Shown: one piece after another, positions 1-14,053 of the stretch
Numbering within the stretch: the first letter of the stretch is position 1
How the letters are laid out: the number at the start of each line of letters is the position of its first letter
NCBI GenBank assembly: GCA_947487165.1
Contig: CANKWX010000033.1
Location: 1 to 41,073, forward strand
Source: Burkholderiales bacterium
GTDB taxonomy: Bacteria > Pseudomonadota > Gammaproteobacteria > Burkholderiales > Burkholderiaceae_E
Reading direction: 5' to 3'
DNA length: 41,073 nucleotides
Position numbers and translations under genes: made by a program
Notes under the pieces: generated by a model
Databases searched by the model: none
Told to the model about the DNA's origin: nothing
The model's input: the letters and a program-made list of their open reading frames with translations, nothing else

Positions 1-568
1 CACCCGGGACCGAGAACGACCGGTCGATCGCGAGGCGGAACTGGCCGTCGCCGGCGCTTGCGGCGGTCTGCTGCGCAAGCCCAACGAGATAGTTGCGCAG
101 GCTTTCGATACCGATGTTTTGCGGCGTCTCCACCTCGAAGCGCAAGGCGCCCGCAAAGCGGCTCTCCTCGAGCAGCGAATCGATGGCGGCAATCGCCTGT
201 GCCTTTTGCCCGGCCGATGCCGGACCGGTCTTGGTCAGAACCACCGCAAGCCGTCTGGCGCCAAGCAACTCCAGGATCGCCAGATGCTCGCGGGTCTGCG
301 GCATCGGTCCATCGTCGGCGGCAACAACCAGCAGCGCCAGGTCGATCGCGCTGATGCCGGCGAGCATATTGCGCACGAAGCGCTCGTGGCCCGGCACATC
401 GACGAAGCCCATCAGTTCGGGGCCGCCGAAGTCGGCATAGGCAAAGCCCAGGTCGATCGTCAGGCCACGGCGCTTTTCCTCCTCGAGCCGGTCGGTGTCG
501 ACGCCGGTAAGTGCCCGCACCAGGCTGGTCTTGCCGTGATCGACATGGCCTGCGGTGGCAACGATCAT
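1..568 (-). CDS. selB: Selenocysteine-specific elongation factor SelB (N-terminal part, cut by window edge)
   Basis: SelB is an EF-Tu-like GTPase that carries Sec-tRNA(Sec) to the ribosome at UGA codons marked by a SECIS hairpin. Only the first 189 residues lie in the window; the C-terminal winged-helix SECIS-binding domains would lie beyond base 1. The visible part is the G domain. It has the P-loop GHVDHGKT (residues 7-14), the RGLTIDLGF switch region (about 34-42) and DVPGH (57-61), all typical of SelB rather than EF-Tu. Start is ATG at 568-566, overlapping the selA stop as ATGA, so translation is probably coupled. It is the last visible gene of a minus-strand operon that also encodes a selenoprotein. 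Identification is firm; the missing C-terminus cannot be judged. Confidence 0.95.
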   Translation of the reverse strand, partial: MIVATAGHVDHGKTSLVRALTGVDTDRLEEEKRRGLTIDLGFAYADFGGPELMGFVDVPGHERFVRNMLAGISAIDLALLVVAADDGPMPQTREHLAILELLGARRLAVVLTKTGPASAGQKAQAIAAIDSLLEESRFAGALRFEVETPQNIGIESLRNYLVGLAQQTAASAGDGQFRLAIDRSFSVPG

Positions 569-1971
569 GGCGTGATGTCGGTCTCGAACAGTCGGACGAA
601 GGCGGCCTCGTCGTCGAGGCAACGCAGATCGAGCCAGAGCGCGCCATCGCTCACGCGACCGATGACCGGTGTCGGCAGGTGGCGCAATTGGGTGGCAAGC
701 CGCCCCAGTGCCGAGCCGGCGGATCGCTTCGTCGCACGAGGCTCGATGCGCAGCCCGAAGCTCGGCAGGGTGTCCAGTGGCAGCGAGCCGCTGCCGATCT
801 GGCTGAACATCGGGGCGATGCTGAGGTGTGCGCGATCTCCCAGCCAGCGTGCCACGGCCGGGCCCACGCGCTGTGCCAGCGCTTCGATCGGCGCGCGTGG
901 GCGGGCCAGCTGGCGCAGCGCGGGTACCCGCTCGATCAGCCGATCGGGGTTGCTGTAGAGGCGCAGCACCGCGCCGAGCGCGGCCAGGGTGAGCTTGTCG
1001 CAGCGCATCGCCCGCTTGAGCGGATTGCGCCGGATGCGTTCGATCAGATCGGCGCGTCCGACCAGCATGCCGGCCTGCGGCCCGCCGAGCAGCTTGTCGC
1101 CGCTGAAGGTCACCAGATCGGCGCCATTGGCCAGCGCCTGATCGGGCGTCGGTTCGGCAGGCAAACCGAAGCGGGTGAGGTCGGTGAGGGTACCGCTGCC
1201 CAGGTCGATCACGAAGGGAATGCCGTGCGAGCGGGCGAGCGCTGCGAGTTCGCGCTCGTCGGGCTCGGCGGTAAAGCCCTCGATGCGATAGTTGCTGGCA
1301 TGCACTTTCATGATCAGGGCGGTCTGCGGCCCGATGGCGTCTGCAAAATCACGCAGGTGCGTACGGTTGGTGGTGCCGACCTCGCGCAGCCGACAGCCCG
1401 CCCGGGACATGATGTCGGGCAGGCGAAACGACCCGCCGAGCTCGATCAGTTCGCCGCGCGAGACGATCACTTCGCGGCGCAGCGCCAGGGCATTGAGCAG
1501 CAGGACGACGGCGGCCGCATTGTTGTTCACCACGGCGGACGCCGGCGCACCGGTCAGGCGGCACAGCCACTGTGCGACATGATCGTCGCGCTCGCCGCGC
1601 TTGCCAGTCGCCAGATCGAACTCGAGGTTCGAGGCGCCGCTGGCGACCCGCGCGATCGCCTCGAGCGCTTCCGGCGGCAGGGGCGCTCGACCGAGATTGG
1701 TGTGCAGGACCGTGCCGGTGAGGTTGAGGACCGGCCGCAGCGAATCGGCCATCAGGGTCTGCAGCCTCGCTGCGATGGCCTGAACCAGGTCGAGCGCCGC
1801 GTCGGCCGCGACTGCCTCGAGCTGCGGGCGGCTCGCGGCGAGCACTTCCCGCGCGACTGACAGGACCATGCTTCGGCCATGGGCCCCGATCAGCTCCACG
1901 ATCTCGGGCCGGTTCATCAGCCGGTCGACCGAGGGCAGGCCTGCTCGCGCATCACGCGGTGCAGCCCTCAC
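565..1971 (-). CDS. selA: L-seryl-tRNA(Sec) selenium transferase SelA
   Basis: SelA is a PLP enzyme that converts Ser-tRNA(Sec) to Sec-tRNA(Sec) using selenophosphate. The product is 468 aa, close to the usual 460 or so. The N-terminal LPSVDRLM (residues 12-19) matches the family opening. The core includes TGTVLHTNLGR (85-95) and the PLP-lysine motif SGDKLLGG with K293. Start is GTG at 1971, preceded by a good purine-rich ribosome site (GGGAGGG, about 1986-1980) in the 33-base gap after the upstream UGSC selenoprotein. The selA frame is the same as that gene's frame, separated by its terminal TGA. The 3' end overlaps selB by four bases. Neither selD nor the tRNA(Sec) gene selC is seen in the window, so they must be elsewhere. 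Confidence 0.96.
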   Translation of the reverse strand: MRAAPRDARAGLPSVDRLMNRPEIVELIGAHGRSMVLSVAREVLAASRPQLEAVAADAALDLVQAIAARLQTLMADSLRPVLNLTGTVLHTNLGRAPLPPEALEAIARVASGASNLEFDLATGKRGERDDHVAQWLCRLTGAPASAVVNNNAAAVVLLLNALALRREVIVSRGELIELGGSFRLPDIMSRAGCRLREVGTTNRTHLRDFADAIGPQTALIMKVHASNYRIEGFTAEPDERELAALARSHGIPFVIDLGSGTLTDLTRFGLPAEPTPDQALANGADLVTFSGDKLLGGPQAGMLVGRADLIERIRRNPLKRAMRCDKLTLAALGAVLRLYSNPDRLIERVPALRQLARPRAPIEALAQRVGPAVARWLGDRAHLSIAPMFSQIGSGSLPLDTLPSFGLRIEPRATKRSAGSALGRLATQLRHLPTPVIGRVSDGALWLDLRCLDDEAAFVRLFETDITP

Positions 1972-1993
1972 CCGCCCACCCTCCCGGGGCGGC

Positions 1994-2006
1994 GAGCCGT
2001 AGGCTC
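1994..2006 (-). other. Small hairpin on the terminal TGA of the UGSC gene, just before the selA ribosome site
   Basis: The stop codon of the selenoprotein forms the edge of a perfect stem GAGCC-UAC-GGCUC (2006-1994). It is followed within about 10 bases by the purine-rich selA ribosome site. The hairpin is short, but its position could affect termination efficiency or selA translation. Function is inference only. Confidence 0.35.
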
Positions 2007-2529
2007 AGTGGCCGCTGATCGAGCGAATGATCTGATCGACCGCCGAGTCGGCGAGTGCGCGCAGTTCGGCATCGCTGCGATCCTGGATCGGATGCGCAAC
2101 GAAGACCATCGCCGGATCGAAACCCAGCGAGCGCGACTGCATCTGCGCGGCGAGAACAAATTCTGTCGACGCAATTCCGACTCCGGGAATGCCGCGACCT
2201 TCGAGATCCGCAATGTCATGCATACAGCACGACGTGCAGGATCCTCAGTCGGCCAGCCCTTCAACGACCAGATCGCATTCGGCGGCGATGGTCTGGGTGA
2301 GTGAAGTGGGCGCCGGACGGGTGAAGGTCGGCTTGCGATAGCGCTTGACCGCGACGCCGCGCGCCTGCAGCAGTTCGTCGAGACGATCGAGGAACACATT
2401 GCCGCGGGCCTTCGAGATGTCGAGGATGCCGACGGTCAGGCCGTCGAGCGCTGCCGGTCTGGCCAGCAGGGCGCGTGCCGCGGGCGAACGCTCTGCGGTC
2501 GGATCGAGCAGGATTACCGGGTCATTCAT
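2005..2529 (-). CDS. UGSC-family selenoprotein with in-frame TGA as selenocysteine
   Basis: Read through the TGA at 2247-2245, this is one 174-residue protein with Sec at position 95 in the motif U-G-S-C, followed by T-S-C-C (C98, C101, C102). Frame and codon composition continue on both sides of the TGA. The N-terminal half has an alpha/beta pattern (VILLDP near 5-10, LTVGILDISK 31-40, CDLVVEGLAD just before Sec). The C-terminal half continues as GIPGVGIAS and ends ISGH. This fits the known UGSC family, in which U or C occupies the first position; the biochemical role is not established. The start ATG overlaps the upstream Trx-fusion gene by four bases. selA and selB follow directly, which strongly supports Sec decoding. 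A simple gene caller would give two fragments (2245-2529 and 2005-2223). A Sec-U-x-x-C arrangement suggests a redox site. Confidence 0.9.
2191..2244 (-). promoter_or_regulatory. Candidate bacterial SECIS region after the Sec codon
   Basis: Bacterial SECIS hairpins lie inside the coding sequence just 3' of the Sec UGA. Two small stems can be drawn by eye on the minus-strand RNA. One is GCAC-GUC-GUGC at 2237-2227. The other, at 2211-2194, pairs GCG and AUCU with AGGU and CGC around a CGA loop, with one bulged G. The second begins 33 bases after the UGA, slightly distal for a classical element. I cannot compute folding energies, so which stem SelB would recognise is open. Confidence 0.4.
2245..2247 (-). 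other. Selenocysteine codon (TGA recoded)
   Basis: This TGA lies inside an otherwise open frame between 2529 and 2005. It is followed directly by codons for G, S, C, T, S, C, C, which gives the UGSC signature. The same operon encodes SelA and SelB. Recoding rather than termination is inferred from the motif, the conserved frame downstream and the gene context. Confidence 0.9.
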
Positions 2530-4019
2530 GCAGTGATCTCCTGGGTGACTGGGGTTGAGCCGACCGCGCCGGAGGCGGCCCAGCCGGCCACAACCGCCGA
2601 AAAAAGGCCGGCTGTGCCGCCGGCCCGAACGATAAGGATGCCGCCGGGGCGAAACTTCGAGACCGTGGTGCCGGCCATCGATGCCGGCAGGCCTTCGGTG
2701 ATGCCGCCCGCGCCCATCACCATGTCGTCGGCGGGCAGTTTGAGCAGATCGACCAGTTCCTTTAACAGACGGGCTTTCGACCAGCCGGCATCAATGAAGA
2801 CTCGGGCGTGTTCGGGCGAGACGATCAGCAGGGCGTCGCCTGCCATCGCCAGCTTCGGATGATCCACCACCCGCATGCAGGCGGCAAAGGTCCGCGCAAG
2901 CGACTCGGGCGTGCGCGACTTCTGGTCGACGATGCCCTGCACGCCTTCGCCGGCAAACAGCGTCACGGTGGAAGCGCCGGGCGCGAAGCCGCGTTCGACA
3001 GACAGGGGCGCCCAATCGCTGTCTTCGGCTTCGGCGAAACAGAAAGTGTATTTGCCGGGTGTGCCGAGCGCCGAACGATCAATCTCGCCGGGGCGCCCGC
3101 CGCCCACATTGCGGATGACCAGCTGCAGTGCGCGCCCGATGCTGGCGTTGGCGCGATTGCCCTGGCCAAGCGCATTGACCCCCGAGTTCATGCCGATCGC
3201 ACGGGAGACCGGACCGTTGGCAATGACAACCGGGCCACAGAACATGGTGGTGCACAGAATGCCGTGCATGCCGAATTCATCGATCAGCGCGGCCTCGACC
3301 GCGGCCAGCACGACCGGCATGTATTCGGGTTTGCAGCCGGCCATCACCGCATTGATCGCGACTTTCTCGACGGTACAGGGGGCGAGATCAGGCGGGATGC
3401 TGCCAAGGATTTCGTCGGGTGAACGCGTGGTGCCGGCGAGCATGCGCAGCACACGTTCGGGCGTGGGTGGCACGACCGGCAGGCCATCGGTCCAGCCGCG
3501 GTCAAAACACGCCTCAAGCGGGTCTTCGGCATCGCCCAGCGCAAGCTGCCGCGAATTGAAACCGGCCTTGCCGAAACGGATCGCCAGCCGTTCGGCGATG
3601 CCGGGCTCAAGGGTCATCGAGCCGCAGCCCGGGCGCAGTGCCGGCAGATCGATGCCGAGCCGGTCGATGCCGCTGACGCGCTGCCACTCGGCGCGATCCC
3701 AGCCATAGGTTCGGGCGACTTCTTTGCCGCCCTCGACGCGAATGAGCGTCGGGACGATTTCGACATCGAGGCGATAGGAGTACTCGAGATGCGCGTCATG
3801 CACGCTACCCTGAAGGCCTGCGCCGAAATCGGGGTCGTCCTGGCTGTAGACCGCCAGACCGGCCGATTCGGCGGCGAGGCGATGCAGCAGCGGCTCGATC
3901 AGAACGCAGGTCGGGCATTCGCGCTTGGCGACGACGATCAGGCCGTCGGTCATGCCGCTCAGTGGGTCGCTGAGTGAGTTGCTGAGTGAGTCGCTGAGGT
4001 GGGTCGACGAGGTGCTCAT
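2526..4019 (-). CDS. Thioredoxin-fold domain fused to a large uncharacterised domain (partner of the UGSC selenoprotein)
   Basis: The product is 497 aa. Residues about 24-115 look like a thioredoxin fold: a beta strand GLIVVAK, a CPTC dithiol (C35, C38), then EIVPTLIRVEGG with a likely cis-proline (P90). Residues about 165-497 form a second domain I cannot name. It starts near GWTDGLPVVPPT (175-186) and is rich in cysteines (C171, C215, C229, C256, C261), with glycine-rich segments toward the end. I recall similar domains occurring next to UGSC proteins, but the function is unknown to me. No signal peptide is evident, so it is probably cytoplasmic. The first 22 residues are a low-complexity Ser-Leu-Ser repeat made by a 12-base tandem DNA repeat, so the true start may instead be the ATG at 3953. 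The last codon overlaps the UGSC gene (ATGA). Likely role, by inference: thiol/selenol redox partner of that protein. Confidence 0.75.
   Translation of the reverse strand: MSTSSTHLSDSLSNSLSDPLSGMTDGLIVVAKRECPTCVLIEPLLHRLAAESAGLAVYSQDDPDFGAGLQGSVHDAHLEYSYRLDVEIVPTLIRVEGGKEVARTYGWDRAEWQRVSGIDRLGIDLPALRPGCGSMTLEPGIAERLAIRFGKAGFNSRQLALGDAEDPLEACFDRGWTDGLPVVPPTPERVLRMLAGTTRSPDEILGSIPPDLAPCTVEKVAINAVMAGCKPEYMPVVLAAVEAALIDEFGMHGILCTTMFCGPVVIANGPVSRAIGMNSGVNALGQGNRANASIGRALQLVIRNVGGGRPGEIDRSALGTPGKYTFCFAEAEDSDWAPLSVERGFAPGASTVTLFAGEGVQGIVDQKSRTPESLARTFAACMRVVDHPKLAMAGDALLIVSPEHARVFIDAGWSKARLLKELVDLLKLPADDMVMGAGGITEGLPASMAGTTVSKFRPGGILIVRAGGTAGLFSAVVAGWAASGAVGSTPVTQEITA
3957..3998 (-). repeat. 12-base tandem repeat, 3.5 copies, at the 5' end of the Trx-fusion gene
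   Basis: On the minus strand the unit CTCAGCRACYCA is repeated 3.5 times with only single-base differences. In frame it encodes repeats of L-S-(D/N)-(S/P). A 12-base unit keeps the frame when copy number changes. It lies between two possible start codons (4019 and 3953), so it may be either coding or leader sequence. Confidence 0.8.
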
Positions 4020-4600: not shown

Positions 4601-4637
4601 TTTGATTGACATGGCAACATTTGCCTATGCAATCAAA
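4601..4637 (+). promoter_or_regulatory. Two-layer palindromic operator over the marR start codon
   Basis: Outer arms TTTGATTG (4601-4608) and CAATCAAA (4630-4637) are perfect inverted repeats. Inner arms GGCAA (4613-4617) and TTGCC (4621-4625) are also perfect, and both share the centre at 4619. This is the size and symmetry expected for a winged-helix MarR dimer site. It covers the likely start codon at 4627, so repressor bound here would block transcription or translation of the gene it precedes. TTGACA at 4606-4611 could be a -35 element inside the site. Confidence 0.7.
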
Positions 4638-5130
4638 AAAAATCGGCTTTTACGGCAGCAATCGGGATCAGATCGTCGAAAGCGTCGGCTACAAGCTCTT
4701 GCAGCTTGCGCTGGCAATGCGGCGTGAAACTGCGTCCCGCCTGCTCTCGCTCGGTCTGACCGAGGCTCAGTGGCGTCCGCTCTGGATGCTCAAGGCCGGG
4801 CGCGCCGATACGCCGCAGGCCCTTGCCCGGGCGCTCGGCGTCGATGCCGGCGCCATGACGCGAATGCTCGACCGGCTCGAGGCCAAAGGGCTGATCGGGC
4901 GGGTGCGCAGCCTGACGGATCGGCGCGTCACGCGCTTGCGTCTGACTGCGACCGGCGAGGCTGCCACCGAAGGCATTCCGGAAGTTGTCGCGGGCGTCAA
5001 CAACGACTATCTCCAGGGTTTCAGCCGGGAGGAGTTCGAGCAGCTCAATGCGCTGCTGGCCCGCATGCGGGCCAACGGCCGAGCGCTGGAGCCGCTCGAG
5101 GGCGATGCCCGCGCGGGGGGGGGGCTTTGA
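4627..5130 (+). CDS. MarR-family transcriptional regulator of the efflux operon
   Basis: The product is 167 aa. It has the MarR winged helix-turn-helix: LGLTEAQWRPLWML (42-55), the recognition region QALARALGVDAGAMTRMLDRLEAKGLI (about 64-90) and the wing with DRR (98-100) before VTRLRLTATG. Proteins of this type (EmrR/MprA, MarR, FarR) repress drug efflux genes and release DNA on ligand binding. The efflux genes follow in the same direction, so autoregulation and control of the pump are expected. The ATG at 4627 is preferred; a TTG at 4606 would add seven residues but falls in the -35-like sequence. There is no strong ribosome site, and the start lies inside the palindromic operator. The C-terminal tail is Gly/Ala-rich, from a run of nine G at 5116-5124. 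Confidence 0.9.
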   Translation: MQSKKIGFYGSNRDQIVESVGYKLLQLALAMRRETASRLLSLGLTEAQWRPLWMLKAGRADTPQALARALGVDAGAMTRMLDRLEAKGLIGRVRSLTDRRVTRLRLTATGEAATEGIPEVVAGVNNDYLQGFSREEFEQLNALLARMRANGRALEPLEGDARAGGGL

Positions 5131-5246
5131 GACAACGCGGGCCCCTTGTTTCCCCATTGTCCGGCCCGTTGTTCGGCCAATTGTCCAGCCAATTTCTCGG
5201 GCAAGGTCGGGCGTCAGTCGCACGCCCCCACACGACCGCAGGCGTC

Positions 5247-6683
5247 GTGTCGGGCGGTTTTCGGCTGTCAATCGTCACGCTGGGATTTTTGCTGTGCGCC
5301 TGCGTCTCGCAGGGCGACTCGAACAAGCGTCTTGCGGTGCTTGAGGCCGACGCTGTCGGTGCGCGGGCGTCGCCCGCCGACTGGCCCGCCGCACGCTGGT
5401 GGGATGCCTTGCAAGACCCCGAACTGTCGGCGCTCATCGATGCCGCCCTGGTCGGGTCGCCGTCGCTCAAGCGGGTCGAGGCGCGTCTCGATCAGTCGCG
5501 CGCGGCAATGCAGTCTGCGCAGGCCGCACGCCTGCCTTCGGTTGCGCTGCGAGGCGAGGCTGCCGAGACGCTCTATACCCAGAATGGATTTATCCCGCCG
5601 CCTTATGCCGGCAATCGCTACTGGAACAGTCGTCTCGAATTCACCGCGAGTTGGGAGCTTGATCTCTTCGGCAGGCAGCGCGCAGTGCTCGACTCGGCGA
5701 TCGGCCAGACGCGCGCCGCGCAGGCCGATTCGCAGGCTGCATCGGTTTTGCTGACGGTCAATGTGGCTGGCGCCTACATCAACCTTGCGCGACTGCTGGA
5801 GGCTCGCACGCTGGCCCGTGCGACTGTCGAGCAAAGGCGCCGAATCAGCGCGCTGGTTGGCGAGCGCAAGGCAGCCGGACTGGACACCGCCATCGAACTG
5901 CGCCAGTCGGAGGGAACGCTTGCGCAGGCGCAGCTCGATGTTCAGGTTCTCGACGATCTGATCGCGCGACAGCGCCGCGCGCTCGCCGAACTGTGCGGAC
6001 AGCGCCCGGATGCGCTTGCCGGCTTATCGCCGCGTCTTACCGCGCTGCCGGGCCTGGCCCTGCCCGATTTTCTGCCCGCCGATCTGCTCGGTCGTCGAGC
6101 TGACCTGGTGGCGCAGCGCTGGCGCGTTGAGTCTGCGCTGCGCGATGTCGATGTCGCGCGCGCCCAGTTTTATCCGAATGTGAATCTGATGGCCTTCGCC
6201 GGACTGGCGAGTCTGGGTTATGCGAACTTTTTCGATTCGACCTCGCTCACCTATGGCGCCGGTCCGGCTATCCACTTGCCGATCTTCGATGGCGGACGGC
6301 TGCGTGCCAATCTGCGCTATCAGGAGGCCGGCATCGATGCCGCCATTGCCGGCTACAACGAGGCGTTGCTGCGCGCCGCACGCGAGGTGGTCGATGAGGT
6401 CGGCTCGGCGCAGGCACTCAAGCGCCAGGCGCGAACGCAGGCCGAGGCGCTGACTGCTGTCGAATCGGCTTATGCACTGTCGATGCAGCGATTCGGCGCC
6501 GGACTGGTCAGTTACCTGACGGTGCTCTCGGCTGAGTCGGCAGTCATTGCCCAGCGCCAGGCCGGTGTCGATCTGCGAGCCCGCCAGCTGAGCACCGACA
6601 TTGCGCTGGTGCGAGCCCTGGGCGGCGGCTTCGTCGGCGCCGGGCCGGTCCTCGAACCCTCTCTTTCGGCAAACCGGCCATGA
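5247..6683 (+). CDS. RND/MFS-type efflux outer-membrane lipoprotein (NodT/OprM family)
   Basis: Outer-membrane channel of a tripartite efflux pump. The 478-aa protein has two OEP repeats. The first includes the conserved WWDALQDPELSALIDAAL near residues 50-67 and WELDLFGRQRAVLDSA around 135-150. The second includes the second-repeat signature GPAIHLPIFDGGRLRANLRYQEA. The GTG at 5247 is chosen because it gives a short signal peptide with a lipobox (LCAC, cysteine 17 or 19). The frame is open far upstream, but that part lies within marR in another frame and lacks a signal. The TGA overlaps the ATG of the adaptor gene (ATGA at 6680). With EmrA and EmrB it forms a complete envelope-spanning pump. 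Confidence 0.9.
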   Translation: MSGGFRLSIVTLGFLLCACVSQGDSNKRLAVLEADAVGARASPADWPAARWWDALQDPELSALIDAALVGSPSLKRVEARLDQSRAAMQSAQAARLPSVALRGEAAETLYTQNGFIPPPYAGNRYWNSRLEFTASWELDLFGRQRAVLDSAIGQTRAAQADSQAASVLLTVNVAGAYINLARLLEARTLARATVEQRRRISALVGERKAAGLDTAIELRQSEGTLAQAQLDVQVLDDLIARQRRALAELCGQRPDALAGLSPRLTALPGLALPDFLPADLLGRRADLVAQRWRVESALRDVDVARAQFYPNVNLMAFAGLASLGYANFFDSTSLTYGAGPAIHLPIFDGGRLRANLRYQEAGIDAAIAGYNEALLRAAREVVDEVGSAQALKRQARTQAEALTAVESAYALSMQRFGAGLVSYLTVLSAESAVIAQRQAGVDLRARQLSTDIALVRALGGGFVGAGPVLEPSLSANRP

Positions 6684-7960
6684 GTCAAGTTGCGACGCCC
6701 GCCGAGCAGTACGCGTCCCGAGTCCGAAGCAATCGCACTGTCGTGATGGTGATGGTGATCGGTGCCTTGCTGGTCCTGGGGGCGGTCTGGGCCCTGTACT
6801 GGCTCAGCGTCTTGCGCGGCCATGAATCGACCGACAACGCCTATGTGCAGGCCCCGGTCGTCCAGATCACGCCGCAATCTGCCGGGACTGTGATTGCGGT
6901 GCTGGCCGACGATACCGATATCGTGAAGGCGGGCCAGCCGCTGGTGCGCATGGACCCGGCGGATGCGCAGCTCGCGCTGACACGCGCCGAAGCGCATCTT
7001 GGCCAGACGGTTCGCGAGGTCAGCACGATTTATGCGAACAATGCGGCACTCGCCGCCAGTGTGTCGATGCGGGTGTCCGATGAGGCCCGCCTGCAGGTCG
7101 AACTCGCTCGCGCCCGCGACGACCTTGCCCGGCGAGCGCCGCTGGTCGCAAGCGGCGCGATCGGGACCGAAGATCTCAAGCATGCCGAGGCCGCGGTCGA
7201 GTCGGCCCGCGGCGCGCTGGCAGTCGCCCGCGCCGCATTGCAGGTCGCCAGGGATCAGGCCTCGAGCAATCTCGCCCTCACGCAGGGCACCACCGTGGCG
7301 GCGCATCCGAATGTCGAACGCGCGGCCACCGCCTATCGGGAAGCGTGGCTCGCCTTGCAGCGATGCGAGATTCCTGCGCCGCTCGGCGGGCAGGTGGCTC
7401 GTCGCACGGTGCAGGTCGGCCAGCGGATTGCGGCCGGTGCGCCGCTGATGTCGATCGTGCCGCTCGAGCAGGTCTGGGTTGAAGCGAATTTCAAGGAAGG
7501 GCAGTTGCGCGATATGCGAATGGGTCAGCCGGTGCGTCTGCAGGCCGATGTGTATGGTCGCAAAGTCGATTTCGACGGCAAGATTCGGGGGCTGGGTGCA
7601 GGCACCGGGGCGGCCTTCGCGCTGCTGCCCGCCCAGAATGCCACCGGCAACTGGATCAAGGTGGTGCAACGTGTGCCAGTGCGCATCGAGATTGATCCTG
7701 AGCAGCTCGCCAGGCATCCGCTTCGGGTCGGCCTGTCGATGCAGGTCGATGTCGATGTCTCGGATGGTGACGGTGCGCCGATCTCGCTCGTCGTGGTTCC
7801 CGAGCGCAGCAACAGTACCGGGGTCTTCGCAGTCGCCGGCGATCAGGCCGATCAGCGCATCCGCGAGATTATCGCCCGTAACCTGGGGTCGGGCGCGACA
7901 GCGAGCGCTGCCCCGGTGACGCCGTCACAGGCCTCGCGTTCGGGCCGTCGCGGCTCATGA
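6680..7960 (+). CDS. emrA: EmrA-like membrane-fusion (HlyD family) efflux adaptor
   Basis: This periplasmic adaptor links the inner-membrane pump to the outer-membrane channel. Of 426 aa, residues about 20-44 form a single N-terminal membrane anchor. Then comes the HlyD/EmrA start of the barrel-sandwich domain (STDNAYVQAPVVQITPQSAGTVIAV, about 50-74). An Ala/Arg/Glu-rich coiled-coil hairpin covers about 95-210. The returning lipoyl half is IPAPLGGQVARRTVQVGQRI, followed by the beta-barrel region WVEANFKEGQLRDMRMGQPV. The STDNAYV motif is typical of EmrA-type adaptors that work with 14-TM MFS pumps. It sits between the channel gene (four-base overlap) and emrB (19-base gap). Confidence 0.93.
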   Translation: MSQVATPAEQYASRVRSNRTVVMVMVIGALLVLGAVWALYWLSVLRGHESTDNAYVQAPVVQITPQSAGTVIAVLADDTDIVKAGQPLVRMDPADAQLALTRAEAHLGQTVREVSTIYANNAALAASVSMRVSDEARLQVELARARDDLARRAPLVASGAIGTEDLKHAEAAVESARGALAVARAALQVARDQASSNLALTQGTTVAAHPNVERAATAYREAWLALQRCEIPAPLGGQVARRTVQVGQRIAAGAPLMSIVPLEQVWVEANFKEGQLRDMRMGQPVRLQADVYGRKVDFDGKIRGLGAGTGAAFALLPAQNATGNWIKVVQRVPVRIEIDPEQLARHPLRVGLSMQVDVDVSDGDGAPISLVVVPERSNSTGVFAVAGDQADQRIREIIARNLGSGATASAAPVTPSQASRSGRRGS

Positions 7961-7979
7961 AGCCGATGGCCGTCCGCCG

Positions 7980-9578
7980 ATGAGCTCAGCCCCTCCCGTG
8001 CCGGCTTCCTTCGAACCACTGAAGGGCGGCGAGCGCGTGCTCGGTACGCTCGCCCTGGCGTCGGCCACCTTCATGAATGTGCTTGATTCCTCGATTGCCA
8101 ATGTCTCGATTCCGGCGATCGCAGGCGACCTCGGCGTCAGCCCCTCGCAGGGGACCTGGGTCATCACCTCCTTCACGGTAGCCAATGCCATCTCGGTGCC
8201 GCTGACAGGCTGGCTGACCCAGCGTTTCGGGCAGGTGCGCCTGTTCGTCGCCAGTGTCCTGCTGTTTGTCCTGACCTCCTGGCTGTGCGGCTTTGCGCCG
8301 AATCTCGAGACCCTGATCGTCTTTCGCGTGATCCAGGGTCTGGTCGCCGGACCGATGATCCCGCTGTCTCAGACTCTGCTGCTGGCGAGTTATCCGCGCG
8401 AGTTGGCCGGCGTGGCCTTGTCGCTATGGTCGATGACGACGCTGATCGCGCCGGTGGTGGGCCCCTTGCTGGGTGGCTGGATCACCGAGACGATCAGCTG
8501 GCCATGGATTTTCTATATCAATGTGCCGGTGGGGCTGGTTGCTGCCATGGTGACCTGGTCGGTCTATCGCAAGCGCGACGCCGGTCCGCGCCGCGTGCCG
8601 CTCGATGTCGTTGGCCTGGCGCTGGTGATCATCTGGGTCGGTGCCTTCCAGATGACGATCGATCTCGGCAAGGACCTCGACTGGTTCGGTTCGACGCTGA
8701 TCATCGTGCTGGCGACCATCTCTGCGGTGGGCTTCGTCCTGTTCCTGGCCTGGGAGCTCACCGAGCCTTCGCCGATCGTCAACCTCAGGCTGTTCGGGCG
8801 TCGCAACTTTCTGGCTGGCACGGTCGCACTCTCGCTGTCCTATGGTCTGTTCTTCGGCAATCTCGTCCTGTTGCCGCTGTGGCTGCAGCAATGGATGGGC
8901 TACACCGCGACCTGGGCCGGGCTTGCGCTCGCACCGGTGGGTGTCTTTGCGCTCACGCTCTCGCCGCTGGTTGGCCGCAAAATTGGGCTGATCGACTCGC
9001 GGCTGCTGGCGAGCATCGCCTTCCTGCTTTACGGCCTGGTCTGCTGGATGCGCGCGGACTTCACCGTGCAGACGCCATTCGAGGTCATCCTGGTGCCAAC
9101 GCTCATCCAGGGTATTGCGGTGGCTTTCTTTTTCGTGCCGCTGCAGGCCATCATCTATAACGGCCTGTCGCCGCAGGAGATGCCGGCGGCGGCAGGATTG
9201 AGCAATTTCGCGCGGATCAGTGCGGGCGCCTTTGTGACCTCGATCTTCGGAACCGTCTGGGAAGATCGTGCCAAGATGCATCACGCCAACATCGCGGAGT
9301 CGATCAACAGCGGCAACACGGCGCTCGCCCAGTCCCGTGCCGACCTCACCGCGCAAGGCCTGAGCAGTGATCAGATCAACGCCATCATTAATCAGATGAT
9401 CGATACCCAGGCCCACACCATGGCAGCCGATGACCTGTTCTACATCTCGTCCGTTCTGTATGTGTCGCTGATTGTGATTGTCTGGTTTGCCTCGCCGAGA
9501 ACCATTGTTCATCGACCTCAGGTGTCTGCCGCGCCGCGACGGCCTGAGGGCAATGACCAGGCTGATGCGAAAGTCTGA
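7980..9578 (+). CDS. emrB: EmrB/QacA-type MFS drug:proton antiporter (DHA2, 14 TM)
   Basis: Inner-membrane pump of the tripartite system. The 532-aa product starts with TLALASATFMNVLDSSIANVSIPAIAGDLG, the DHA2 first-helix signature with the conserved Asp in LDSSIANV. WVITSFTVANAISVPLTGWLTQRFGQVRLF follows as the motif A region, and GVALSLWSMTTLIAPVVGPLLGGWITETISWPWIFYINVPVG is the antiporter motif C region. Hydrophobic segments are consistent with 14 helices. A soluble loop near residues 430-480 precedes the last helix. Substrates are likely hydrophobic drugs or uncouplers, by family analogy only. The last 26 bases overlap the DUF1345 gene. Confidence 0.95.
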   Translation: MSSAPPVPASFEPLKGGERVLGTLALASATFMNVLDSSIANVSIPAIAGDLGVSPSQGTWVITSFTVANAISVPLTGWLTQRFGQVRLFVASVLLFVLTSWLCGFAPNLETLIVFRVIQGLVAGPMIPLSQTLLLASYPRELAGVALSLWSMTTLIAPVVGPLLGGWITETISWPWIFYINVPVGLVAAMVTWSVYRKRDAGPRRVPLDVVGLALVIIWVGAFQMTIDLGKDLDWFGSTLIIVLATISAVGFVLFLAWELTEPSPIVNLRLFGRRNFLAGTVALSLSYGLFFGNLVLLPLWLQQWMGYTATWAGLALAPVGVFALTLSPLVGRKIGLIDSRLLASIAFLLYGLVCWMRADFTVQTPFEVILVPTLIQGIAVAFFFVPLQAIIYNGLSPQEMPAAAGLSNFARISAGAFVTSIFGTVWEDRAKMHHANIAESINSGNTALAQSRADLTAQGLSSDQINAIINQMIDTQAHTMAADDLFYISSVLYVSLIVIVWFASPRTIVHRPQVSAAPRRPEGNDQADAKV

Positions 9579-12814: not shown

Positions 12815-14053
12815 ATGCATGAATTCATCGCCAACCTGCGGATGCTGCTGCGGGCGATGCGGCGTCAGGCCTTCGAGCTCAGGCTGCAGGAAACCGCGAG
12901 CAGCCTGACCCTGCTCACCCTGGGCGCCATCGTGCCGATGGCCGTGGTCGGACTGATGCTGATCACCGCCTTGCCTGCCTTCGAATCGATGCGCACCGAT
13001 ATCGAGCGTTTCCTGGCCACGAATCTCTTTTTGCCGTCCTTCAGCACGATCATCATCCGCTACCTGAACCAGTTTCTGGAGGCCGCGGGCAAGCTCTCGG
13101 CAATCGGTACCGTGGCCTTTTGCGCCACTGCGATCACCTCGATGCTCACCATCGACAAGACCCTGAACCAGATCTGGCGCACACCGCGTCCGCGCCCGCT
13201 TGCGCAACGCATGATGCTCTACTGGACACTCCTCACGATCGGCCCGGTGCTGCTTGGCGGCGCGCTCGCCCTGCAGACCTCGCTGGTTGCAAGGGTCCGG
13301 GCGTTCACCGGCATCGCTGATGTCATGGGTGGCTGGCTGCCTGCGGTGTTGGGCATCGCTGCTCTCTCGATGCTTTACTGGCTTGCGCCGAATGACCGCG
13401 TCCGATGGCGTCATGCCCTGGTCGGAGCGCTGGTCTCAGTCGGATTGCTCGGTTTGCTCAACCTGCTGCTTGGGCTCTATTTCACGCGGTTTCCAAGCTA
13501 TGCGATTGTCTACGGCGCATTTGCGGCGTTGCCGCTCTTTTTGCTGTGGCTGTTTGCAGTCTGGATGAGCGTGCTGATCGGCGCACTGGTCGCCGCCAAT
13601 GTCCGGTTCTGGGGGGTATCGCTTGGCGATCCGCATGTGGCAACGCCATCGGCCGAATTCGAGCGGATGGTTCACATCCTGTCTGCGCTGGTGCGGGAAT
13701 CGCCCAGGCCGGTCCCAAGCGAGCGGTTCCGGGCCGAGTTCGACGCAGATGCCAAGGCGGCTGACCGGGTCGTCGCTTTGCTGGCGTCGCAGGCCTATCT
13801 GATGCGGGTCTGGCCGGTTCGGGCCGATGGCGGATCCGCCGGTGTCTGGGATGAATACTGGCTGCCTGCAGCCGGGTTACCCGGCAAGACATTGCGCCCG
13901 CTGTTCGATCGGGTCTGGTCGCTGCAGCCCGGCCTAGCCGCCCGCGCTGACCGCCAGCCGAGGGGCGCTTCCTTCGATCCGGGCAGTCCGCTGCTCGATC
14001 GGCCCTTGTCCGAGATCCTTGCCCTGCCTGCGACCGGCAACTTGCCGACCTGA
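12815..14053 (+). CDS. YihY/BrkB-family inner-membrane protein
   Basis: The product is 412 aa. Six hydrophobic segments lie in the first 280 residues, including LTLLTLGAIVPMAVVGLMLI, LSAIGTVAFCATAITSMLTID and the late YAIVYGAFAALPLFLLWLFAVWMSVLIGALVAA, which is highly characteristic of YihY (once misnamed ribonuclease BN). The T-x-x-x-I-D-K-x-L-N-x-I-W signature is present (MLTIDKTLNQIW). A soluble C-terminal region of about 120 residues includes a winged-helix-like stretch (VRESPRPVPSERFRAEFDADAKAADRVVALLASQAYL). Its function is unknown. The ATG at 12815 is chosen by homology to the family opening; the frame is open to 12668. Confidence 0.9.
   Translation: MHEFIANLRMLLRAMRRQAFELRLQETASSLTLLTLGAIVPMAVVGLMLITALPAFESMRTDIERFLATNLFLPSFSTIIIRYLNQFLEAAGKLSAIGTVAFCATAITSMLTIDKTLNQIWRTPRPRPLAQRMMLYWTLLTIGPVLLGGALALQTSLVARVRAFTGIADVMGGWLPAVLGIAALSMLYWLAPNDRVRWRHALVGALVSVGLLGLLNLLLGLYFTRFPSYAIVYGAFAALPLFLLWLFAVWMSVLIGALVAANVRFWGVSLGDPHVATPSAEFERMVHILSALVRESPRPVPSERFRAEFDADAKAADRVVALLASQAYLMRVWPVRADGGSAGVWDEYWLPAAGLPGKTLRPLFDRVWSLQPGLAARADRQPRGASFDPGSPLLDRPLSEILALPATGNLPT

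Follow-up and report, generated by a model that had tools for sequence, protein, structure and literature searches.

The stretch of DNA analyzed here (the window) is a contig of 41,073 nucleotides from a Burkholderiales bacterium (CANKWX010000033.1 of assembly GCA_947487165.1; contig C33 of genome G000 in our set). At its left end lies a minus-strand operon built around a selenoprotein of the UGSC family. The operon encodes a partner protein of 497 amino acids with an N-terminal thioredoxin (Trx)-like domain (2526..4019), the 174-residue UGSC protein (2005..2529), the L-seryl-tRNA(Sec) selenium transferase SelA (565..1971) and the first 189 residues of SelB (2..568), the rest of which is cut by the contig end. 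ATGA overlaps join the partner gene to the UGSC gene and selA to selB (565-568), and 33 bases (1972-2004) separate UGSC from selA; the original prediction for this locus had described the same genes, strand and spacing, and all were found in place. SelA and SelB were identified by profile matches (TIGR00474, 572 bits; TIGR00475, 218 bits over residues 1-189 of 581, for a cut-off of 242 and with the remainder past the contig end). The partner was defined by profile searches, a family alignment and a structure model, and the UGSC protein by a structure model and by profile searches that place it within a known family (PF24696, E 2.1e-43, 148.9 bits vs. a cut-off of 25; NF041046, 148.6 bits vs. 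125). The locus is a sel operon in the sense that selA and selB adjoin a selenoprotein gene.

An in-frame TGA (2245..2247) in the UGSC gene aligns with the selenocysteine (Sec) codon of homologues and would specify Sec95 of the motif U-G-S-C98. Of 143 homologues, 135 have TGA at this site, 6 have a Cys codon and 2 have TAG (Blastococcus, L036; Geodermatophilus, L081). No residue other than Sec or Cys occurs at position 95, and 141 of the proteins keep C98. TAG-decoded UGSC was already known from the Geodermatophilaceae (PMC5330540). A bacterial SECIS-like (Sec insertion sequence) hairpin follows the codon in the window (2215..2233), its first base being the 12th after the UGA. In 78 aligned TGA/TAG genes (76 distinct), the stem is 8 bp long and begins at the 12th base 3' of the Sec codon, 94.7% of its cells are paired, and the GU of the loop is invariant. 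Three pairs have changed on both sides, a number reached in 12 of 500 shuffles, and the covariation score was matched by none of 500. The genome also encodes a tRNA-Sec with anticodon tca (C113:6322-6413, 70 bits, in agreement with ARAGORN) and selD (contig C25, 423 bits), the remainder of the Sec trait that the original prediction had proposed to seek. The prevalence of TGA at this codon among the homologues shows that it is no chance occurrence, and its decoding as Sec is backed by the hairpin of the 78 genes, whose pairs covary and whose loop keeps GU, and by the tRNA-Sec and selD of the genome; the window protein carries both the [UC]GSC motif and the Sec decoding signals of its family. 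A second Rfam tRNA-Sec match above the cut-off, on contig C20, is called tRNA-Ser by ARAGORN and was set aside. Contig C113 ends just past the tRNA-Sec and may be the contig that follows C33, by analogy with the order partner-UGSC-selA-selB-tRNA-Sec in three related loci (L024, L026, L031). At this contig end (L012 4845-6413, minus strand) the tRNA-Sec adjoins a gene for a putative carotenoid/lignostilbene oxygenase.

The operon holds a single selenoprotein, as first proposed; the genome does not. At C2:39963-41890 it carries a second UGSC gene, which has one TGA, next to a Trx-bearing partner of its own (63% identical), and neither selA nor selB was found in the 18 kb surrounding this pair; there is one SelA match genome-wide. 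This second gene is the additional UGA-Sec gene that the original prediction had suggested looking for, and no in-frame stop was found in six molybdopterin or one formate dehydrogenase (Fdh)-alpha matches, the only other selenoprotein families searched in this genome. Formate dehydrogenase alpha with a TGA occurs in 5 of 36 UGSC genomes. Two GST genes stand immediately upstream of the second pair, and a TPP enzyme split into two genes (N- and C-domain) lies about 6 kb from it (L011 14073-15202, plus strand).

The partner protein comprises a Trx-like domain (residues ~22-124) with the motif C35-P-T-C38 (3906..3917, minus strand), a linker motif PG-C132-GS (codon of C132 at 3624..3626) and a core (~166-497). 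Taken alone, the window protein shows weak Trx similarity (Pfam E 0.31); the family profile matches thioredoxin 2o85 in the PDB (E 2.6e-4), the best thioredoxin-type Foldseek match of the model has an E of 9.5e-4, and nearly all of the best 50 Foldseek matches listed are thioredoxin-type folds aligned to the N-terminal domain. By family profile and structure model the partner is a CxxC protein with a Trx fold at its N-terminus, as the original prediction had it. In an alignment of 57 of 64 listed partners, V89-P90 of the Trx domain, C132 and C229 are invariant; C35 and C38 are as well, which is no test because the list had been restricted to proteins with a C[PAG][TSQ]C motif. The core has nearly invariant polar residues (D178, R296, E330), and no Pfam, NCBIfam or PDB relative was found for it by profile or Foldseek. 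Long Foldseek alignments to 6uqn (fumarase, TM 0.24) and 6yt3 (TM 0.14) were set aside as weak.

A scan of genome contigs with the partner core gave at least 587 relatives, of which the best 80 were examined. In 75 of them the core has a CxTC-type motif ahead of it; of the other five, one is masked by Ns (L067), one is cut (L085), and three (L073, L097, L098) have the motif upstream of an in-frame TGA. This TGA replaces the codon of C132 in the linker (PG[C/U]GS), and the same frame holds the Trx domain upstream and the core downstream of it. The three loci come from two phyla, L073 and L097 being from betaproteobacterial metagenome-assembled genomes (MAGs) and L098 from an Acidimicrobiaceae MAG. 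Hairpin energies near the three putative Sec codons rank 6, 12 and 15 of 66, which is suggestive only. If the linker TGA has been read correctly from these sequences, the partner would itself be a selenoprotein in two phyla.

UGSC and the partner are nearly always found together. In 75 of the 80 loci no more than 300 bp separate the partner from a UGSC gene, which is downstream on the same strand in 72 and divergent in 3; in the remaining five it is 3.9-7.4 kb away (3) or absent from the examined stretch (2). Seven of seven further UGSC loci that were searched, L011 and six plasmid loci (the annotated regions among 11 plasmid matches), also carry a partner. In one prevailing architecture UGSC comes after a Trx-partner; in the other it precedes a Trx-less partner, often in one reading frame. 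A Trx-less partner upstream of UGSC was also seen. Across 14 selA-bearing loci, UGSC and partner distances agree closely (rho 0.96, 0 of 2000 permutations), whereas SelA and UGSC distances hardly do (rho 0.34, 77 of 2000). The true unit is the UGSC-partner pair, and the idea that all four genes travel as a portable module is not borne out.

UGSC is rare, being present in 6 of 369 genomes of the class, and the partner was found in 6 of 398 genomes of the phylum, one of them (G469) marginal at 18.7 bits. Among 68 genomes chosen for having UGSC, 50 carry one or two copies, and a few carry many: 29 genes above the cut-off in the betaproteobacterial MAG G757 (the source of L097), 16 in G332, and 8 each in G759 and G769. 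Every copy in G757 and G332 has one TGA, and 27 of the 29 copies in G757 have a partner within 1.5 kb. G757 has a single selA, which argues against gross mixture of that genome. Taken together, these data suggest that the UGSC-partner pair is a widespread kind of reductase driven by thioredoxin, one that has at times been greatly multiplied. In PMC5029168 the largest bacterial selenoproteome named is that of Syntrophobacter, with at least 39 members; 29 Sec genes of a single family would bring a betaproteobacterium close to that figure. This contrasts with a 2006 report that gave fdhA as the sole selenoprotein in the Betaproteobacteria known at that time to use Sec (PMC1794560). The 16 copies of G332 (L118-L125, L178-L184) include the UxxC variants USTC, USSC, USLC, UNGC, UHGC and UDGC.

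The UGSC structure model (pLDDT 93.6) is a parallel alpha/beta fold of alternating strands and helices, with Sec95 immediately before helix 96-111. Its PDB matches are weak (TM ~0.3-0.5, best ~0.4-0.5, rmsd ~6), and the best are the F420H2 oxidase FprA, the FMN reductase SsuE, flavodoxins and TIR domains; no thioredoxin occurs among the best 50 matches listed. UGSC is thus modelled as Rossmann/flavodoxin-like, in disagreement with the Trx-like fold that PMC2398784 guessed, along with a redox role, for this family.

Around the Sec residue, UGSC has a distant likeness to the selenoprotein B subunits of glycine, sarcosine and betaine reductases (TIGR01917, TIGR01918) and to PrdB, with which it shares a UxxC Sec motif. 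In an alignment of 64 of 83 UGSC rows, 57 proteins reach E≤1 against the GrdB model TIGR01917, the best at 8.5e-6, and the GrdF model matches 48. Residues 67-162 of the L126 protein align with positions 322-407 of 431 in TIGR01917, that is, over ~95 residues round Sec, and this domain appears homologous to the Sec-motif domain of glycine reductase selenoprotein B. UGSC is not a full-length GrdB, being much shorter and far under the cut-offs (12.2 bits for the window protein and 26.7 for L126, the best shown, vs. 602.2). Neither a pyruvoyl subunit nor GrdA or GrdC was seen in the examined stretches or models, and the 57 partner proteins, to which the search for these subunits was confined (the genomes were not searched), have no NCBIfam or Pfam match to them. 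Glycine reductase selenoprotein B works by thioredoxin-dependent selenol chemistry. UGSC differs further in having carriers among aerobic genera such as Reyranella and Geodermatophilus.

The neighborhoods offer a clue to the electron source. trxB-like genes occur at loci with a Trx-less partner on plasmids (3/6), in G332 (2/15) and elsewhere (5/11), compared with 3 of the 80 mostly Trx-fused loci and none of 20 control stretches of G757; one Cys-type plasmid locus reads trxB-trxA-partner-UGSC. Among three further Trx-fused loci, L145 has a trxB-like gene. Neighbor scans covered 86 of 106 and 99 of 152 candidate proteins. Genes annotated as tripartite tricarboxylate transporter proteins, which we take to encode Bug/TctC-type solute-binding proteins, are denser at the UGSC loci of G757 (65 in 260 kb) than in the 20 control stretches (21 in 220 kb), which points to organic acids. 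Two other leads were dropped. MmgE/PrpD gave 7 matches among the 99 neighbor proteins and no enrichment in G757 (5/28 loci vs. 4/20 control stretches, one query). A coenzyme M/sulfo-acid lead arose from ComA-like genes near UGSC in two plasmid loci and a presumed ComDE-like pair near the second UGSC copy of the window's genome; ComA was found in 8 of 69 UGSC genomes, never on a UGSC-bearing contig (read by eye).

From the genes, their Sec decoding and constant pairing, the Trx domain, the Sec/Cys interchange at two sites and the distant similarity to GrdB, we infer an electron route, a set of chemical steps and a class of substrate. We consider it somewhat likelier than its negation that UGSC and the partner each supply one half of a selenoenzyme, driven by thioredoxin, whose reaction is the reduction of a small organic substrate in small-molecule catabolism. 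Electrons would pass from NADPH through thioredoxin reductase to the Trx domain of the partner (C35/C38), and then probably via the linker C132, which may be Sec in some relatives, to the Sec95/Cys98 pair of UGSC. Sec95, at the start of its modelled helix, would attack an electrophilic atom of a substrate bound between UGSC and the core of the partner. Formation of a Se-S bond by Cys98 would free the product, and the Trx domain would reopen that bond. The mechanism would be much like that proposed for the B subunits of glycine reductase and proline reductase, except that no pyruvoyl subunit was seen. Different copies of the pair might act on different substrates within catabolic gene clusters, and selA, selB and often selC may adjoin the pair because UGSC is a main, sometimes perhaps the sole, user of Sec. 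A reductase or thiol/selenol exchange role was also what the original prediction favored, and it remains the best reading.

Several observations weigh against this reading. None of the 28 G757 loci and neither locus of the window's genome has a trxB-like gene, and the six trxB-like proteins tested match thioredoxin reductase (TrxR) best but with 169-264 bits, under the cut-off of 343, one being a fragment. Two G332 UGSC representatives (L119, L179) start with a signal-peptide-like stretch; it would place those copies where thioredoxin of the cytoplasm could not reach them. The match to GrdB is far under the cut-off (12-27 bits vs. 602 among the proteins shown). Neither Cys229, present in 121 of 139 cores and absent from 18, nor Cys327, absent from 29, is universal. 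The enrichment of Bug-type genes per locus is modest in G757 (24/28 vs. 11/20, p = 0.025), none were found at the 15 UGSC loci of G332, and the neighbors indicate no single substrate.

An alternative is that Sec95 serves as a nucleophile or metal ligand in an isomerase, lyase or hydrolase, and that the Trx domain merely keeps it reduced. The near invariance of D178, R296 and E330 in a core with no known redox fold would suit such an enzyme, as would the MmgE/PrpD, CoA-transferase and acyl-CoA dehydrogenase genes among the 99 scanned neighbors of copies in G757, G759 and G761. We think it unlikely, given that the Trx fusion in nearly all close relatives and the exchange of Sec and Cys in the linker suggest catalytic electron flow, and that GrdB-like Sec domains are reductive. 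A Trx domain and a UxxC motif would also be explained by an enzyme of the peroxiredoxin/Trx kind with a general role as an antioxidant or in thiol repair, and it would agree with the redox role and Trx-like fold guessed in PMC2398784; the parallel alpha/beta model, with no thioredoxin in the best 50 PDB matches listed, and the up to 29 paralogues per genome, which fit substrate-specific enzymes better, make it a poor candidate.

The linkage of UGSC to Sec genes is real. SelA exceeds the cut-off in 64 of 69 UGSC genomes, the others being G495 and G793 (Cys-UGSC), G135 and G796 (TGA-UGSC) and G627, whose motif reads CGSC although a partial match counted one TGA. Sixteen of the 64 have selA no more than 10 kb from a UGSC gene (G000, G314, G332, G660, G747, G748, G749, G750, G757, G760, G761, G762, G763, G765, G775, G778), where random placement, which ignores relatedness, predicts 1.0 and reached at most 7 in 200,000 draws; broken contigs will hide some linkage. 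UGSC is followed by selA on one strand within 0.1 kb in six of these (G000, G747, G749, G750, G765, G778), and 10 of 16 sel-bearing loci scanned have a tRNA-Sec in the same stretch. Apart from the order shared by L024, L026 and L031, we found selA-selB, tRNA-Sec on the opposite strand and then Trx-partner-UGSC (L084, L086, L087, L089); selA-partner-UGSC (L090); trxB and selB divergent from UGSC-partner-selA (L123); a tRNA-Sec between partner and selB (L146); and selA divergent from UGSC (L171). In L123 (G332), a second short SelA-like stretch (13023-13301, plus strand) lies between selA and another UGSC-partner fusion and is perhaps a remnant of selA.

The original prediction held that the linkage would be incidental if most relatives had UGSC away from selAB and many other selenoproteins. 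In part this is what we see, as selA or selB occurs in only 10 of the 80 closest loci (mean length 13.3 kb; contig ends truncate several) and UGSC is present in many copies in some genomes. SelA and UGSC divergence also agree poorly. Yet the excess over random placement is about sixteen-fold (relatedness ignored), at least five arrangements occur, and a like layout has been reported for fdhA where it is the only selenoprotein (PMC1794560), so an incidental linkage seems improbable. That the pair serves selenium delivery or Sec synthesis, and stands beside selA-selB-selC for that reason, would fit the 16 linked genomes but is very improbable given the 48 without linkage (many fragmented), the many copies per genome, and Cys versions in G495 and G793, which lack a SelA match above the cut-off.

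The selA-selB-selC/fdhA operon likewise sets decoding genes beside the selenoprotein that they serve (PMC1794560), and sel genes adjoining a selenoprotein gene are also described in PMC5029168; the premise of the original prediction that selAB are usually kept apart from selenoproteins does not agree with the fdhA report. Here UGSC and the partner take the place of fdhA, and the genome has a second UGSC pair. The SAO and Tso operons are also built round Sec proteins, of families other than UGSC-partner (PMC13188914). SAO has a Trx-like member, SaoT (NCBIfam label), whose model weakly matches 1 of the 57 partner proteins (E 0.19).

Nor is the system undescribed, as had been supposed: UGSC has been named since at least 2008 (PMC2398784). 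That paper lists the family with Sec in 255 sequences and with Cys in 21, and it describes a fusion to a domain called 'Unknown_1', which may be the partner core. The part of that paper available to us gives no function, constant partner, Trx fusion, partner Sec, copy number or GrdB kinship for the family of the window selenoprotein (PF24696/NF041046). Literature naming the UGSC selenoprotein gives, in its available parts, lists, habitats, the TAG case and the 'Unknown_1' fusion. A search of the open literature, with supplements and subscription papers lying outside it, found no UGSC partner, Trx fusion, partner Sec, GrdB kinship, Rossmann/flavodoxin-like model or copy expansion; a prior description is possible. 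What stands of the original interpretation is the reductase role and the linkage of sel genes to UGSC. The window locus is a recurrent Sec operon round a known orphan selenoprotein, and the UGSC-partner pair is its most valuable content.

We tentatively extend the thioredoxin-driven selenoenzyme reading, in a form that we hold more doubtful than credible, to a new class of two-component thioredoxin-driven selenol reductases. These would be pyruvoyl-free counterparts of the glycine and proline reductase B subunits, present also in aerobes, multiplied (29 copies in one betaproteobacterial genome) into substrate-specific catabolic reductases, endowed in some lineages with a second Sec relay in the partner, and able to carry their own selA-selB-selC cassette. 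In aquatic metagenomes UGSC ranks with the commonest families of selenoproteins (PMC2398784), and the partner, the Trx electron source, the GrdB-like active site and the up to 29 copies are testable handles on its function.

Immediately upstream of the partner gene in the window, and divergent from it, lies a gene for a putative lumazine-binding protein (PF12893; 4171-4545, plus strand). It is followed at 4621-9575 (plus strand) by consecutive genes for a MarR/SlyA-like regulator, a NodT-type outer membrane factor, an EmrA-like adaptor and an EmrB-like permease, which form an ordinary efflux operon running in the direction opposite to the Sec operon.

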